From Candidatus Hydrogenedentota bacterium (lineage in GTDB: Bacteria > UBA8481 > J006): 11,579 bases of DNA. This document shows, one piece after another, positions 3,384 to 11,459 of this stretch. Made by a program: the position numbers and the translations under genes. The stretch spans positions 1 through 11,579 of the forward strand of contig RFFU01000004.1 of assembly GCA_003697085.1 (NCBI GenBank), written 5' to 3'. Below the pieces are notes generated by a model. The model ran no database searches, was not told the origin of the DNA, and saw only the letters and a list, made by a program, of their open reading frames with translations. Each line of letters opens with the position of its first letter. Position 1 is the stretch's first letter.

Positions 3384-5654
3384 CTACGTCAAGACACGCC
3401 AGACCGTTGCCACGGCCACGCACGCCAGGAACCCCATTCCCACCGGCAGGAACGTTGCCAGCAGTGTCCAGCCGACTCTCCGCGTTTCCTTCCAGATCGT
3501 GAAGATCGTGGTGCTGCACGGATTATGCAACAGACTGAAGATCATCAAATTGATTCCGGTCAAAAGCGTCCATCCTCCGGCTTCTAATATCCGCGCCGTC
3601 TCGGAGATCGAATTCGCCTCAAACATCACTCCCGGGCCCGCTCCGACCCCGGAGAGACCTCCGACCATCACGGTCAACATCAGGATCGTTGGAATGATGA
3701 TCTCATTCGCGGGGATCGCAACGATAAACGCCAAAAGAACGACTCCGTTGAGCCCCATGAGGGTTCCGAGGGGATCGAGCAATCGGGAGAGGGAAACAGC
3801 CAGAGGCGCTCCTCCGAAAGAAAGGTTTCCAATCAACCAGATCACCAATCCCGCGGGGAAAGCGAAGAGAACGGCCCGGCCGAGAACGATGATCGTGCGG
3901 TCGATCAAAGAAGTATACAACGTTTGAAGAATTCGCGGTGGGCGGTAGGGAGGAAGTTCGAGGCTGAAGACGGAAGCCTCCCCCTTCAACACCGTTCGAG
4001 AAAGAACCCAGGAAACCAAAAGCGAAAGGATCACGCCGGTGACGGCGACGGTAAGCACTGCCAAGGCCGAAACGGCTCCGGCAAGCACAGGCGGAGCGAC
4101 GGCTCCCACGAAGATCGATGCCATCAAGATCTGCATCGGCCATCGCCCGTTGCAGATCGAAAAGTTGTTTGTAATGATCGCGATCAGTCGTTCGCGGGGA
4201 CTATCAATGATCCTCGTCGCCACTACGCCGGCCGCGTTGCAACCGAATCCCATACTCATCGTCAGTGCCTGTTTTCCGTGGGCGCCGGCCCTTCGAAAGA
4301 GGGGATCGAGATTGAAGGCGACGCGGGGAAGGTACCCGAAATCCTCCAGCAACGTGAAGAGAGGAAAAAAGATCGCCATTGGAGGGAGCATCACACTGAC
4401 CACCCAGGCCGTGGCCAGATATCCCCCGTCAATCAGGAGGCCGACAAGAAACCGCGGAAGACCCAGTGAAGAGGCCCCTGCCTTCAAAAGGGGATAGATT
4501 TTCCCGATGAGGAACCTCGAGATCATCTCGGAAGGAACGTTCGCACCGGCGATCGTCAACCACAACACGATCGCCAAGAGGCCCAACATTACGGGAAATC
4601 CCCACACCGGATGGGTGAGAATTCGATCGAGAACGAGATCCGGATCCCGTCGCATCGCCGCGCCTTCGCGAATCACGCAACGATCGGCAATACGAGCCGC
4701 TTCCGTATAGAGGCTTTCGACGATCCGATCACGAAGGGACTCGCGAAAGCGCCACCGTAATCTGCCCGCCGTCTCGAGCGCCTCACTGATCGCCTCGCGC
4801 CGCTCTCCCCTTTCCGTGTTCGTTCCGAAGGATTCCTCATCCCTCCCTCCCTCTCCGTCCCCCACGACCGGACTCGATCCCAACAATCCCCGACGAAATC
4901 CGTCCTCGACGGTCGCGTCCCCCTCCAAGAGCCGTAACGCAACCCATCCGGCGTTCTTCAAGTCCGGGTAGGCGCGGCGTACAGAGGCGGCCACCTCGTC
5001 CCGCGCTTCCCTCACTTCCGCAGGAAGGACGGTTTTGCGGTGCGGATGACACCGGTAAGACCCCTCCGCGACTTCACAAACAGCCCGAACCACCTCCGAA
5101 CTGCCCTTTCCATAACGCGCCACAGTCGGCACGACCGGCACGCCCAGATCCTTGGAAAGGCGCCGCACATCGATCCTCAGACCGCGCCGATCGGCCTCGT
5201 CCATGAGATTCAAACACACGACCGCACGCTCCGTGATCTCCAATATCTGAAGGCAGAGATTGAGGTTTCTCTCGAGCCGTGTCGCATCGAGCACGATGAG
5301 GACAACGTCGGGATTTCCAAAGAGGATGAAGTCACGGGCCACTTCCTCGTCGGTGCTGATCGGAAAGAGCGAATAAGTGCCTGGGAGATCGACGAGCTTG
5401 TAACGCGCCCCGCGCACCTCGAATCCTCCCTCCGCTCGGGTGACTGTTTTGCCCGGCCAGTTCCCGGTGTGTTGCCGCAATCCGGTCAGGCGATTGAAGA
5501 CGGTGCTTTTTCCTGTATTCGGATTCCCCGCCAGCGCAATAACATAATCCCAGTCGTTCATATCGATCCCGAGGCGCACGAGATTCTCCACGTTGTGCAC
5601 GGGACACCCCGCGCAGGCTTCGGGAACCCTCGCTTCGGAACGCCCCGAACTCAT
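3384..5654 (-). CDS. feoB: Ferrous iron transport protein B
   Basis: A 756-aa inner-membrane Fe(II) transporter with a cytoplasmic G domain. G1 is GNPNTGKST (43-51), the switch region is around [11 protein letters not shown] (61-71), G3 is DLPG (89-92), G4 is NLMD (149-152) and a weak G5 lies near TVAR (177-180). A helical spacer (about 190-345) contains an acidic, low-conservation stretch near 265-300. The membrane part begins at [20 protein letters not shown]. It holds the two FeoB gate repeats, with [15 protein letters not shown] followed by [14 protein letters not shown], and ends in a segment with [14 protein letters not shown]. The N-terminus has CAGCPVH (Cys14, Cys17, His20) before the G domain, a possible metal or redox site. 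ATG 5654 overlaps the upstream stop in an ATGA junction, implying translational coupling and supporting this start over the internal Met32. No separate feoA or feoC gene is seen; FeoA is fused to the upstream regulator. Confidence 0.97.
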
Positions 5655-6721
5655 AAGCCTTTGGACGCCGCCGGTTCCCCTGCCACGCGATGAATATTGC
5701 CGACTCTTCTCACGAGAAGTTTCTCGGCTTGCTCCGGCCTCAAGGCGATCAAACTTCCACGAATACGATAAGCCGTCACCCCGCCACTCATCGCTTTCAA
5801 CTCGGCACGAACCTTCGTTCCCGGAAGAAAACCGAGATCCATCAACCTTCGCCTCTCCAACCCCCGGAGACTTTGCGCGGTAGCCACGATTTCACCCGTT
5901 TCTCCCGGGGCCAATTCCGCCAGAGTTCCCGTAACCGCATCGCGCCTTCGTTCCCCGCATTTCCTTCTCCTCGGTTGCTCCCGACGGTCCACGAAGATGT
6001 TGGCCGCGGCCGCGTGCGTAATCTCCTTCGGAACCCCCTCCAAATTCAAGCGCGTAATCTCCCCCTCCTGTGACACCATCTCGATCTCCATACCCGGTTC
6101 AAATCCCTGCTCGGTCAATTCCCTGTAGAGATTTCCGGGTTCGTCCTCGATGTGCGTGATTCCGGCTCGTTCTCCATCCGACATCTCGCTCAACGGTGAG
6201 CCTTCCTCGGGGGAAGGCAGTTCGCCCGTGACAGTCGGAATCGGATCTCCATGCGGATCATAGCGGGGATGGCCGAGCCGGCGTTCCAACTCCGCCGCCT
6301 CGGAATCCGTCAGATAGTGCTCCCGTTCGTCCGCTTCCTCGTGCCATTCCCGAGAATCCACCCCCGTTTGGTCCGCCAGATATTTTTCCCAGAGGCGATG
6401 GAGTCTGACGAGTCGAACCGCCATCTTGCGTCCGGGGCCCGTGAGTTCAAGAGTGTTCCCGCGAGGACGAGCGAGGTTCCCCTTGCCGAGGTTATTCACG
6501 ATCTCTGCTGCACGGCGAGTCGATATCTCCAATGCTCCGGCGAGACTTTCGATCGTCGCCGTCCGCTCGCGGCGCTCCGCCTCGAAAAGGTGCTTCAACG
6601 AATCCTCAACCAGAATTCGCTCGGTCCTCCGGCTTCGCTTCAGAAGGCGCCGCACGCGGGCGAACGAAAAGAGAAGGAGAAACGAGGCAAGGACGAATAC
6701 AAATGTGAGAATGCCTTCCAT
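5651..6721 (-). CDS. Membrane-anchored DtxR/MntR-like iron regulator fused to FeoA
   Basis: A 356-aa protein with five parts in order. (1) One membrane segment (about 3-20, [18 protein letters not shown]) followed by basic residues, so the rest faces the cytoplasm. (2) A winged-helix DtxR domain (about 37-105; [19 protein letters not shown]). (3) The DtxR metal-binding and dimerisation domain (about 106-160). It keeps the ligand pattern His108 and Glu112 (LHRLWE), then His127, Asp131, Glu134 and His135 (HEEADEREH), and the signature [14 protein letters not shown]. (4) A divergent SH3-like domain (about 175-245). (5) A canonical FeoA domain (about 266-338; [40 protein letters not shown]). The ATG at 6721 has AGAGG 7 nt upstream. 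It is the first gene of the feo operon and overlaps feoB by 4 bp. Inferred role: senses Fe(II) or Mn(II), represses its own operon and supplies FeoA to FeoB. Whether it still binds DNA is untested. Confidence 0.9.
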
Positions 6722-6817
6722 AAGAACACCTCTTTCTTCGCCGCCGGTCGGACCAATCCAAGCCCCCTGAAGAAAGTCCGCGACTTCGAGAAGAGTACCG
6801 GCGAAACCGTCGACTAG

Positions 6818-6942: not shown

Positions 6943-7656
6943 TCATTTTACGATCACCTTGCCGACCATGAACGGATGGATATTGCAGTAATAATCAAAC
7001 GTGCCCCGCTCGGTAAACGTGTGAGCAAAAGACTTGTTCTGGCCGAACAGGCCCGATTGGAATTTGCCATCAGGAAATTTCGTCTGCTTCATACCGCGGG
7101 CTTCACGCCCATTATAGGATTTGCCGCTTGTGACGTCGTGTTCAAAAGCATCTTCGTTTGTCCACACAACCTTTGTCCCCGGTTTGATGACAATCTCGGC
7201 CGGATCAAACTTCACGTCATGAATAGCCACTTTCACGACCGCTTCTTTCCCCTGCCGTTCAGAAGATCCGTCACCTCTCGCGGAAGATCTTCCTGATTCG
7301 TTCGAGGAACTCTCCGGCTGGGACGTTTGTGGATCATTCTCGGACGGAGGCAAACCTTCTCCCGAGGGGTGAGACGCGGCCGTGGGCTTCTCGGATTTAT
7401 TCTCCTCCCACGAAGCAGGCTCACTCGCGGATTCTTCCGCATGAGGCATCGAAGCGGGCGAGGCGGTTGCCTCTTTCGCCGGCGATTCTGTTCTCCTCCC
7501 TGGGTGCCTCGATGCCCCGCACCCCACGGCTGCCGCGAAAAGAACCCCCCCCGCGATAAGCAACATTCCTCTTCCCGACAGCACACGGAAAAACACGGGC
7601 CGCCGGCGCAAGGCCGGCGACCACGTGTCGGTGCCGCGTGAAACGCTTTTTTCCAT
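6943..7656 (-). CDS. Type-1 copper protein (plastocyanin/amicyanin-like cupredoxin), lipid-anchored
   Basis: A small blue-copper electron carrier predicted to be tethered in the periplasm. Numbered from a possible GTG start at 7671 (242 aa): hydrophobic segment 36-48 ending in AAAVGC (Cys51, likely lipobox), a Ser/Glu/Pro-rich low-complexity linker (about 55-142), then one cupredoxin domain (about 143-242). Copper ligands are all visible: His178 (AFEHDV), then CNIHPFM giving Cys229, His232 and Met235. The C-x2-H-x2-M spacing matches amicyanin and pseudoazurin-like proteins. VKFDPAEIVIKPGTKVVWTNED is the usual first half of the fold. I chose ATG 7656, which follows AAAGGAG with almost no spacer; the GTG at 7671 overlaps the upstream gene. 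Either start implies translational coupling with the gene ending at 7662. The redox partner is unknown. Confidence 0.87.
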   Translation of the reverse strand: MEKSVSRGTDTWSPALRRRPVFFRVLSGRGMLLIAGGVLFAAAVGCGASRHPGRRTESPAKEATASPASMPHAEESASEPASWEENKSEKPTAASHPSGEGLPPSENDPQTSQPESSSNESGRSSARGDGSSERQGKEAVVKVAIHDVKFDPAEIVIKPGTKVVWTNEDAFEHDVTSGKSYNGREARGMKQTKFPDGKFQSGLFGQNKSFAHTFTERGTFDYYCNIHPFMVGKVIVK

Positions 7657-7661
7657 CTCCT

Positions 7662-8348
7662 TTACTTCCACTCGACCGTGTCATACATAAGGTGCAGGAA
7701 TTTCGTGTAGGGAGGTAGATAACCCTTGGTCGGCTCCTCCTTCGGATGCGCCACGAAATGGACCTGGATGCCCGAGGGATTGTAAACCGATCCCGGATAC
7801 TCCTTGACCTTCATCGGCCCCTTGAAGTCCACCTTTCCGGTCACGGGATCGCGTACTTCCTCCGTCACCATAAGGTGGCCGACGCCCTTCCACGCCAGCT
7901 TCCCGTTGTGCCAGACGACTGCCGGCCCCCACGTGGCCACGTAGGTCCAGATCTTCGGTAACACCGGCGGACTCATCGAAGCATCGACATCTCCCCCCGT
8001 CGCTCCGTGCAAATAAACATTCGTCTTGATCATCTTGAACTTTTCTTGCACAACCTTCCATTCTCCGTCTTCCCCTTTGAAGGTTGCCACGACCGATCCC
8101 TTTTTGGCATCGGGATCGAGATCGATCGTGATTTTTCCAACGCCGTGAATGATTCCCTCGCCGTTATAGCGAAATCGATCGTGACTGTCGTAACGACCGA
8201 CTTGGTAGGCCGGTTCTTTTCCCTCCATGACAACCTTGTTCCTCGCCTGGCTCGGAGTCGCCAGAACAGCCACCAACCCGGCGAAAATCGACAAAACCGC
8301 CAGCCCCGTCGTCCCTCTTCTCCCCAGAATTTCCTTCCGCCTCTTCAT
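7662..8348 (-). CDS. Exported protein of unknown function, paired with cupredoxin
   Basis: A 228-aa protein from ATG 8348, chosen because GAGG lies 5 nt upstream and a signal peptide follows at once: basic MKRRKEILGRR, hydrophobic core about 14-30 and a probable cleavage site after TPSQA (residue 35). A longer GTG start at 8387 would put 13 charged residues ahead of the signal and is less likely. The mature part has no cysteine, is rich in beta-type sequence and has eight histidines (56, 68, 114, 147, 158, 197, 201, 219) and several Trp/Tyr residues. Examples are GEGIIHGVGKITIDLDPD, WTYVATWGPAVVWHNGKLAW and GIQVHFVAHP. I do not recognise the family. The cupredoxin gene follows immediately, with start and stop overlapping or 5 nt apart, so the two are almost certainly co-translated. 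A periplasmic role linked to copper or electron transfer is inference from that alone. Confidence 0.8.
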   Translation of the reverse strand: MKRRKEILGRRGTTGLAVLSIFAGLVAVLATPSQARNKVVMEGKEPAYQVGRYDSHDRFRYNGEGIIHGVGKITIDLDPDAKKGSVVATFKGEDGEWKVVQEKFKMIKTNVYLHGATGGDVDASMSPPVLPKIWTYVATWGPAVVWHNGKLAWKGVGHLMVTEEVRDPVTGKVDFKGPMKVKEYPGSVYNPSGIQVHFVAHPKEEPTKGYLPPYTKFLHLMYDTVEWK

Positions 8349-8387
8349 AGTTTCCTCAGCCTCCTTCTCAATATTCTCGAATTCCAC

Positions 8388-8937: not shown

Positions 8938-9012
<75 letters not shown>

Positions 9013-9079
9013 TCGTTCGAGGTATTGACTTTTCCCGGTACCGCAATGTCGCCCCACTTTTTGATTGGTGCGTTCTGTC

Positions 9080-9153
9080 GGGCGGATAGCTCAGTTGGTC
9101 AGAGCGTCTGGTTTACACCCAGAAGGTCCCAGGTTCGAATCCTGGTTCGCCCA
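9080..9153 (+). tRNA. tRNA-Val (anticodon TAC)
   Basis: Acceptor GGGCGGA/TTCGCCC with one G-U pair, D-arm GCTC/GAGC, anticodon stem TCTGG/CCAGA with loop TTTACAC (anticodon TAC), T-arm CCAGG/CCTGG with loop TTCGAAT, and discriminator A. CCA is not encoded. It lies 67 bp after tRNA-Gly, likely in one transcript. Confidence 0.97.
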
Positions 9154-11223: not shown

Positions 11224-11313
11224 GGAGGGGTGCCGGAGTGGTTGAACGGGGCGGTCTCGAAAACCGTTGTACCAGTGATCCTGGTACCGAGGGTTCGAAT
11301 CCCTCCCCCTCCG
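11224..11313 (+). tRNA. tRNA-Ser (anticodon CGA)
   Basis: A class II tRNA of 90 nt. Acceptor GGAGGGG/CCCCTCC, anticodon stem GCGGT/ACCGT with loop CTCGAAA (anticodon CGA). The long variable arm is GTACCAG/CTGGTAC, a perfect 7-bp stem, the T-arm is GAGGG/CCCTC with loop TTCGAAT, and the discriminator is G. CCA is not encoded. Confidence 0.97.
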
Positions 11314-11374
11314 CTGAGACATTTCAACGAGTCGAAATTCAAAAGCCATACGGGAAAATGCAGGTCCCAAAAAG

Positions 11375-11459
11375 GGAGAGGTGGCCGAGTGGTTGAAGGC
11401 ACCGGTCTTGAAAACCGGCATACCGAAAGGTATCGGGGGTTCGAATCCCCCCCTCTCCG
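11375..11459 (+). tRNA. tRNA-Ser (anticodon TGA)
   Basis: A class II tRNA of 85 nt. Acceptor GGAGAGG/CCTCTCC, anticodon stem CCGGT/ACCGG with loop CTTGAAA (anticodon TGA). The variable arm is ATACC-GAAA-GGTAT, the T-arm is GGGGG/CCCCC with loop TTCGAAT, and the discriminator is G. CCA is not encoded. It lies 61 bp after tRNA-Ser(CGA) and is probably co-transcribed with it. Confidence 0.97.

Follow-up and report, generated by a model that had tools for sequence, protein, structure and literature searches.

Two partner proteins of FeoB are relevant to the locus reported here. FeoA contacts the FeoB G-domain in a nucleotide-dependent manner and stabilises its GTP form (PMC8980893). FeoC, a winged-helix partner that was formerly taken for a transcription factor, is able to act post-translation, and it leaves feoB expression unaffected where this has been tested (PMC8749426). 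DtxR-type proteins have been described in two settings that bear on the locus reported here. In Porphyromonas gingivalis the soluble protein PgMntR (PG1044), which has a mixed Asp/Cys site, is encoded in an operon with FeoB2, a reported manganese transporter; a shift of its own promoter DNA is seen at 700 nM regardless of metal, EDTA included, and Fe(II) dissociates the complex (PMC4805248). In Chlamydia, YtgC is cleaved to release YtgR, which binds DNA (PMC5599777). Fusions of DtxR with FeoA were removed from the analysis in the study of FeoA and Bacteroides fragilis FeoAB (PMC8980893), and a study of Feo evolution makes no mention of DtxR (PMC8749426).

In the present study we have analysed a complete contig of 11,579 bases (the window) from a 3.2-Mb, 94.6%-complete genome of Candidatus Hydrogenedentota bacterium, which encodes a membrane-anchored DtxR-FeoA protein, mDtxR-FeoA, immediately ahead of FeoB. 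The window protein is like PgMntR in its winged helix, metal domain, two FeoA domains and FeoB operon, in the same domain order; PgMntR is soluble, without an anchor, whereas the window protein is anchored through residues 3-21 (PgMntR was compared by its description and by way of a Prevotella look-alike). That Prevotella protein (L204) nests inside the family described below (support 100/100) and precedes an FeoB with an N-terminal CxxC. As in B. fragilis FeoAB, FeoA is paired with FeoB, but here it sits on the metal sensor and not on FeoB (PMC8980893).

Results

The mDtxR-FeoA gene and its surroundings

The gene is a single frame on the minus strand, from an ATG at 6721 to a TGA ending at 5651 (Table 1). 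It starts in the context AGAGGTG-TTCTT-ATG, the nearby in-frame alternatives being GTG23 and TTG42 only, and both a chance frame and a wrong start are excluded by this Shine-Dalgarno-like sequence together with the homologues. The downstream gene matches FeoB at 392 bits against a cut-off of 316 (TIGR00437).

Table 1. Features of the mDtxR-FeoA-feoB locus, in window coordinates
Feature	Position	Strand	Basis or remark
mDtxR-FeoA gene: TM anchor, DtxR winged helix, metal/dimerisation domain, SH3 (FeoA-like), FeoA	5651..6721	minus	356 aa
Shine-Dalgarno-like AGAGGTG, 5 nt before ATG	6727..6733	minus	read from sequence
N-terminal TM segment, residues 3-21; homologue of the final helix in ABC permeases of MntB/TroC type	6659..6715	minus	hydropathy, profile search
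Basic juxtamembrane linker, residues 22-38; family P(-21)/G(-18) motif lost in the window copy	6608..6658	minus	
DtxR helix alpha1 with winged helix-turn-helix, residues 39-94; carries ligand Asp40; degenerate DNA-contact surface	6440..6607	minus	
DtxR metal-binding/dimerisation domain, residues 95-150; His108, Glu112, His127, Asp131, Glu134, His135	6272..6439	minus	
SH3 / FeoA-like domain 1, residues 183-246; starts just ahead of conserved H190-x-E192-D193-E194-P195	5984..6175	minus	
Canonical FeoA domain, residues 265-340	5702..5929	minus	Pfam
feoB, 756 aa; start overlaps mDtxR-FeoA stop as ATGA	3384..5654	minus	TIGR00437
CxxC (Cys14, Cys17) in the N-terminal extension of FeoB	5604..5615	minus	signature of mDtxR-FeoA-linked FeoBs

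A gene for a plastocyanin/azurin-like cupredoxin (6946-7671, minus) precedes mDtxR-FeoA, ending about 225 bases before its start; beyond it comes a gene (7662-8387, minus) whose 241-aa product has a signal-like N-terminus and matches nothing in Pfam. Two pairs of tRNA genes are found on the plus strand (8938-9153 and 11224-11459; Rfam). Riboswitch control was considered and rejected, as Rfam gives no riboswitch in the window or in 10 loci, only tRNAs.

The first-pass annotation, made from the letters of the window, had named a separate feoA gene used with this FeoB as one of the observations that would count against its reading. No stand-alone feoA for the window FeoB was found across the 94.6%-complete genome, and the reading survives; the one other FeoA domain of this genome belongs to a second DtxR-FeoA protein beside a second feoB on contig C62. 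Stand-alone FeoAs are present elsewhere in the genomes of some other carriers, so that their absence is not general. On C62 the second feoB is followed by the gene of the soluble 236-aa DtxR-FeoA (approximately 13.5-16.6 kb of the contig in this genome, G000; locus L041, 7510-8220 and 8515-10626, minus). Its winged helix is shrunken and it carries a CPHG-x-PI...CC motif. CPHG DtxRs resembling it occur in several other genomes, some apparently near feoB, and this type is possibly an independent DtxR turned FeoB accessory.

Domains, fold and metal site

Pfam assigns residues 95-163 to Fe_dep_repr_C (1.3e-23, 83 bits against a cut-off of 27) and residues 266-338 to FeoA (2e-24, 85.9 bits against a cut-off of 23), with a weaker second FeoA match over the SH3-like domain (window 5987-6196). 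The DtxR fold is recovered by sequence against solved structures (5zr4, 2.4e-21), and a Foldseek search with an AlphaFold2 monomer model (built with 73 family members, mean pLDDT 90.8) ranks MntR, IdeR and ScaR structures first, the best being the MntR structure 5zr6. By fold, ligands and Pfam match the protein is thus a member of DtxR/MntR, and by domain score and position beside feoB it carries a canonical FeoA domain; no curated NCBI family takes up the mDtxR-FeoA protein at its cut-off. The Kyte-Doolittle maximum of 2.46 falls over residues 3-21, and beyond residue 40 nothing exceeds 0.65. Residues 22-37 hold eight K/R against one acidic residue, which predicts an N-out/C-in topology. In the model, residues 2-50 form one continuous helix, the TM segment running into the alpha1 that carries Asp40, although AlphaFold is prone to extending such helices. 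The first-pass annotation had read anchor, DtxR and FeoA as one chain at 5651-6721, translationally coupled to feoB. The frame, the domain matches and the model agree with the single chain, its limits are correct with the gene on the minus strand (6721-5651), the ATGA overlap of stop and start supports the coupling, and the predicted N-terminal TM segment is conserved in homologues.

The ligands of the two DtxR/MntR sites, primary and ancillary (Asp40, His108, Glu112, His127, Glu/Asp131, Glu134 and His135), are near-invariant in the family, with an entropy of 0.17 bits over 55 family representatives against 0.28 in the neighbouring soluble DtxRs. Judged from its residues, the primary site (Asp40, Glu/Asp131) resembles that of MntR more than that of DtxR. 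Since this site is MntR-like and PgMntR pairs with the manganese transporter FeoB2, the metal sensed and transported may be Mn(II). The same two observations bear on the earlier description of the protein as an iron regulator: metal sensing beside the transporter is probable, and iron as the metal is uncertain (PMC4805248).

The metal site might also be purely structural, in a passive scaffold of the FeoA or FeoC kind whose DtxR part dimerises, positions FeoA and stabilises FeoB. In favour of this, conservation is found in the second FeoA domain and the dimerisation domain, and FeoC, with no effect on feoB expression where tested, provides a precedent (PMC8749426). The near-invariance of both primary and ancillary ligands is nevertheless beyond what a structural role would seem to need, and we regard a passive scaffold as quite unlikely.

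An anchored family upstream of feoB

A scan of a genome collection yielded a first set of 80 loci, the best matches to the full protein, from at least 12 phyla: 48 are from Chloroflexota and 11 from Acidobacteriota, followed by Ignavibacteriota, Planctomycetota, Calditrichota, Gemmatimonadota, Zixibacteria and others. feoB is immediately downstream in all 80, with the identical 4-base overlap in 33. Because these loci were best matches to the full protein, we recounted with a query lacking the TM segment in 247 genomes of a sample of the phylum Bacteroidota, which gave 31 full-length fusions, 30 of them analysed. An N-terminal helix is found in 75 of the 80 first-set loci and in 30/30 of the Bacteroidota set; the anchor, which the first-pass annotation considered unusual, is therefore the rule in this family. 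At least six members lack it (L055, L093, L106, L116, L120 and Prevotella L204), and for this reason it is dispensable in some lineages.

In the Bacteroidota set, feoB is the next gene after all 30 fusions, and in 27 cases a soluble DtxR gene immediately precedes the fusion; among the 69 first-set loci with enough sequence on the upstream side, 25 have the soluble DtxR gene as a neighbour. The order of the module is soluble DtxR, anchored DtxR-FeoA, FeoB. Longer Bacteroidota frames, examined as candidates for other twin-FeoA proteins, were either conventional soluble DtxRs or a permease fusion. A search limited to open-access papers retrieved no description of an anchored DtxR-FeoA protein, and the family, although widespread, is apparently undescribed. 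Two Ignavibacteriales contigs, L074 (5297-12430) and L076, carry the whole module with an ABC permease-DtxR fusion approximately 4 kb downstream; in the tree this fusion is one of the family's nearest relatives.

The FeoB subtype

The FeoBs linked to mDtxR-FeoA form a recognisable subtype. An N-terminal CxxC is found in 108 of 110 linked FeoBs, against none of 20 unlinked ones; linked FeoBs without it are those of G007 and of one member in each of the two sets. The CxxC extension precedes the G1 motif and is a near-perfect marker, for which a metal relay or an Fe/Zn site are candidate roles.

The DNA-reading surface and the operator

We compared the 55 family representatives with neighbouring soluble DtxRs, the two groups having similar mean identities (0.49 and 0.51). 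The recognition-helix surface has an entropy of 2.92 bits in the family against 1.51 in the soluble proteins, and the eight-position DNA-contact signature of DNA-binding DtxR/MntR repressors, which adjacent soluble DtxRs match at 7.28 of 8 positions, is absent from the family (1.05/8). Permease-fused DtxRs score 1.69/8. Among the folded domains of the family, the winged helix is conserved least. A difference in the charge of the helix-turn-helix is modest in the paired set (p=0.02), and charge alone as proof of lost DNA binding was downgraded to weak support.

A palindrome, TTTAG-N6-CTAAA (at most one mismatch), precedes the module in 23 of the 28 operons that include a soluble gene and in 36 of the 51 that do not, against 0.3 and 0.45 expected from shuffles; the Bacteroidota set is weaker in this respect (10/27 against 1.1 expected). 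Where the adjacent gene is missing, a canonical soluble DtxR is in most cases encoded at another place in the genome. The operator is absent from five of six genomes without a soluble DtxR and from 10 of 33 with one (p=0.024, in a sample partly hand-picked), which means that 10 genomes have a soluble DtxR and an operon without recognisable operator. Because an invariant operator stands beside the hypervariable helix of the anchored protein, the pattern suggests that the soluble DtxR is its reader.

These data bear on the possibility that mDtxR-FeoA is itself a membrane-bound repressor, whose tethered dimer would bind the operon promoter at high metal, with its FeoA domain docked on FeoB. In favour of this, the model shows an intact winged-helix fold, a relative of PgMntR type shifts promoter DNA (PMC4805248), and the operator is kept in 36 of the 51 operons that have no adjacent soluble DtxR. 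On the other hand, recognition helix and wing vary freely and are without the contact signature while the operator is invariant, canonical soluble DtxRs are available in trans in most such genomes, and the window operon has no operator. We consider a membrane-bound repressor unlikely. In most anchored members DNA binding has likely been lost, to judge from the contact residues; in some lineages it may have been retained, or recovered, once the anchor was gone. The missing signature does not prove the loss, because permease-fused DtxRs also lack it and YtgR nevertheless binds DNA (PMC5599777).

In the window genome no TTTAG-N6-CTAAA operator was found upstream of the operon, and the other DtxRs (on contigs C62 and C79) are atypical; the canonical soluble DtxR and the operator both appear to have been lost. 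No match to a Fur-family protein was obtained in this 94.6%-complete genome, in which DtxR-type proteins may be the sole regulators of iron.

The origin of the anchor

A profile HMM of the family TM segment and linker was run against 2519 ORFs from all fetched loci. Outside the family, all its matches at E<0.05 fall on the last helix of ABC-3 metal permeases of MntB/TroC type; the strongest (2.9e-8) is in a permease-DtxR fusion, and the top matches are in register with the DtxR start. The distance from the proline of the FxPxxG motif to the start of the DtxR E-D motif is exactly 21 residues in all 13 fused permeases, in 67 of the 75 members from the first set and in 24 of the 30 from Bacteroidota; the window copy has kept the permease helix and lost the P and G of the motif. 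A DtxR-domain tree groups the family in a single clade (100/99) beside the permease-fused DtxRs (90/81), with all soluble DtxRs compared lying elsewhere (93/89), and a larger quick tree is in agreement. On the basis of the helix homology, the 21-residue register and this tree, the anchor is best interpreted as what remains of a permease-repressor fusion of YtgCR type. With such fusions the family has in common the last permease helix, FxPxxG, the register (at family level) and the nearest DtxR domains; it differs in that the rest of the ABC permease is gone, one helix remaining, that FeoA has been added and that the partner is FeoB instead of an ABC ATPase. With soluble DtxR, IdeR, MntR and ScaR it has in common the fold, metal ligands and SH3 domain, and is set apart by the anchor, the extra FeoA, the lost signature and a clade separate from those compared.

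The common ancestry with permease-DtxR fusions raises the question of regulated release, in which a protease would cut the basic linker and free a soluble, DNA-binding DtxR-FeoA, by analogy with Chlamydia, where YtgC cleavage frees YtgR (PMC5599777). The complete loss of the anchor in several members would fit such a protein; the freed form, however, would keep the degenerate DNA-reading surface, and the model shows the helix from TM segment to alpha1 unbroken, with no unfolded loop for cleavage. We consider regulated release very unlikely.

Discussion

The architecture, spread and origin of the family are well supported. Homology and phylogeny support a descent from a permease-DtxR fusion of YtgCR type, which lost the ABC permease save for its last helix and gained FeoA at the C-terminus, the gene becoming fixed upstream of feoB.

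As to function, we judge it somewhat probable that mDtxR-FeoA is a membrane-tethered metal-sensing accessory subunit of the CxxC FeoB subtype, while a separate soluble DtxR controls transcription. We propose that the anchor holds a DtxR-type dimer at the cytoplasmic face, where metal at the conserved DtxR sites would shift alpha1, with its Asp40 and continuous in the model with the TM segment, together with the SH3 domain. These shifts would alter the engagement of the FeoB G-domain by FeoA, and import could in this way answer to cytosolic metal without transcription. The separate soluble DtxR, often the first gene of the operon, would read TTTAG-N6-CTAAA. On this proposal mDtxR-FeoA would gate FeoB. 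Concerning the one-protein feedback loop put forward in the first-pass annotation, sensing beside the transporter remains probable, and the branch in which the DtxR part binds DNA is weakened both by the variable surface and by the pairing of the operator with the soluble DtxR. The full evolutionary statement, namely that a DtxR repressor was turned, by reduction of an ABC permease to a single helix, into a metal-sensing subunit that does not bind DNA and gates CxxC-type FeoB post-translationally in at least a dozen phyla, seems to us about evenly balanced.

The function of FeoA and the way in which FeoB is switched off are open questions, and this family joins a well-understood metal sensor to FeoA beside FeoB, a fusion that makes them testable by metal-site mutants. 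The family also offers an evolutionary path from a permease-repressor fusion through an anchored stump to a transporter subunit, and a criterion for when the annotation "DtxR regulator" is likely wrong. Some operons annotated as "ferrous iron" FeoB operons may import manganese. If the proposal is true, the family would represent a direct metal feedback on the importer, conserved over at least a dozen phyla.
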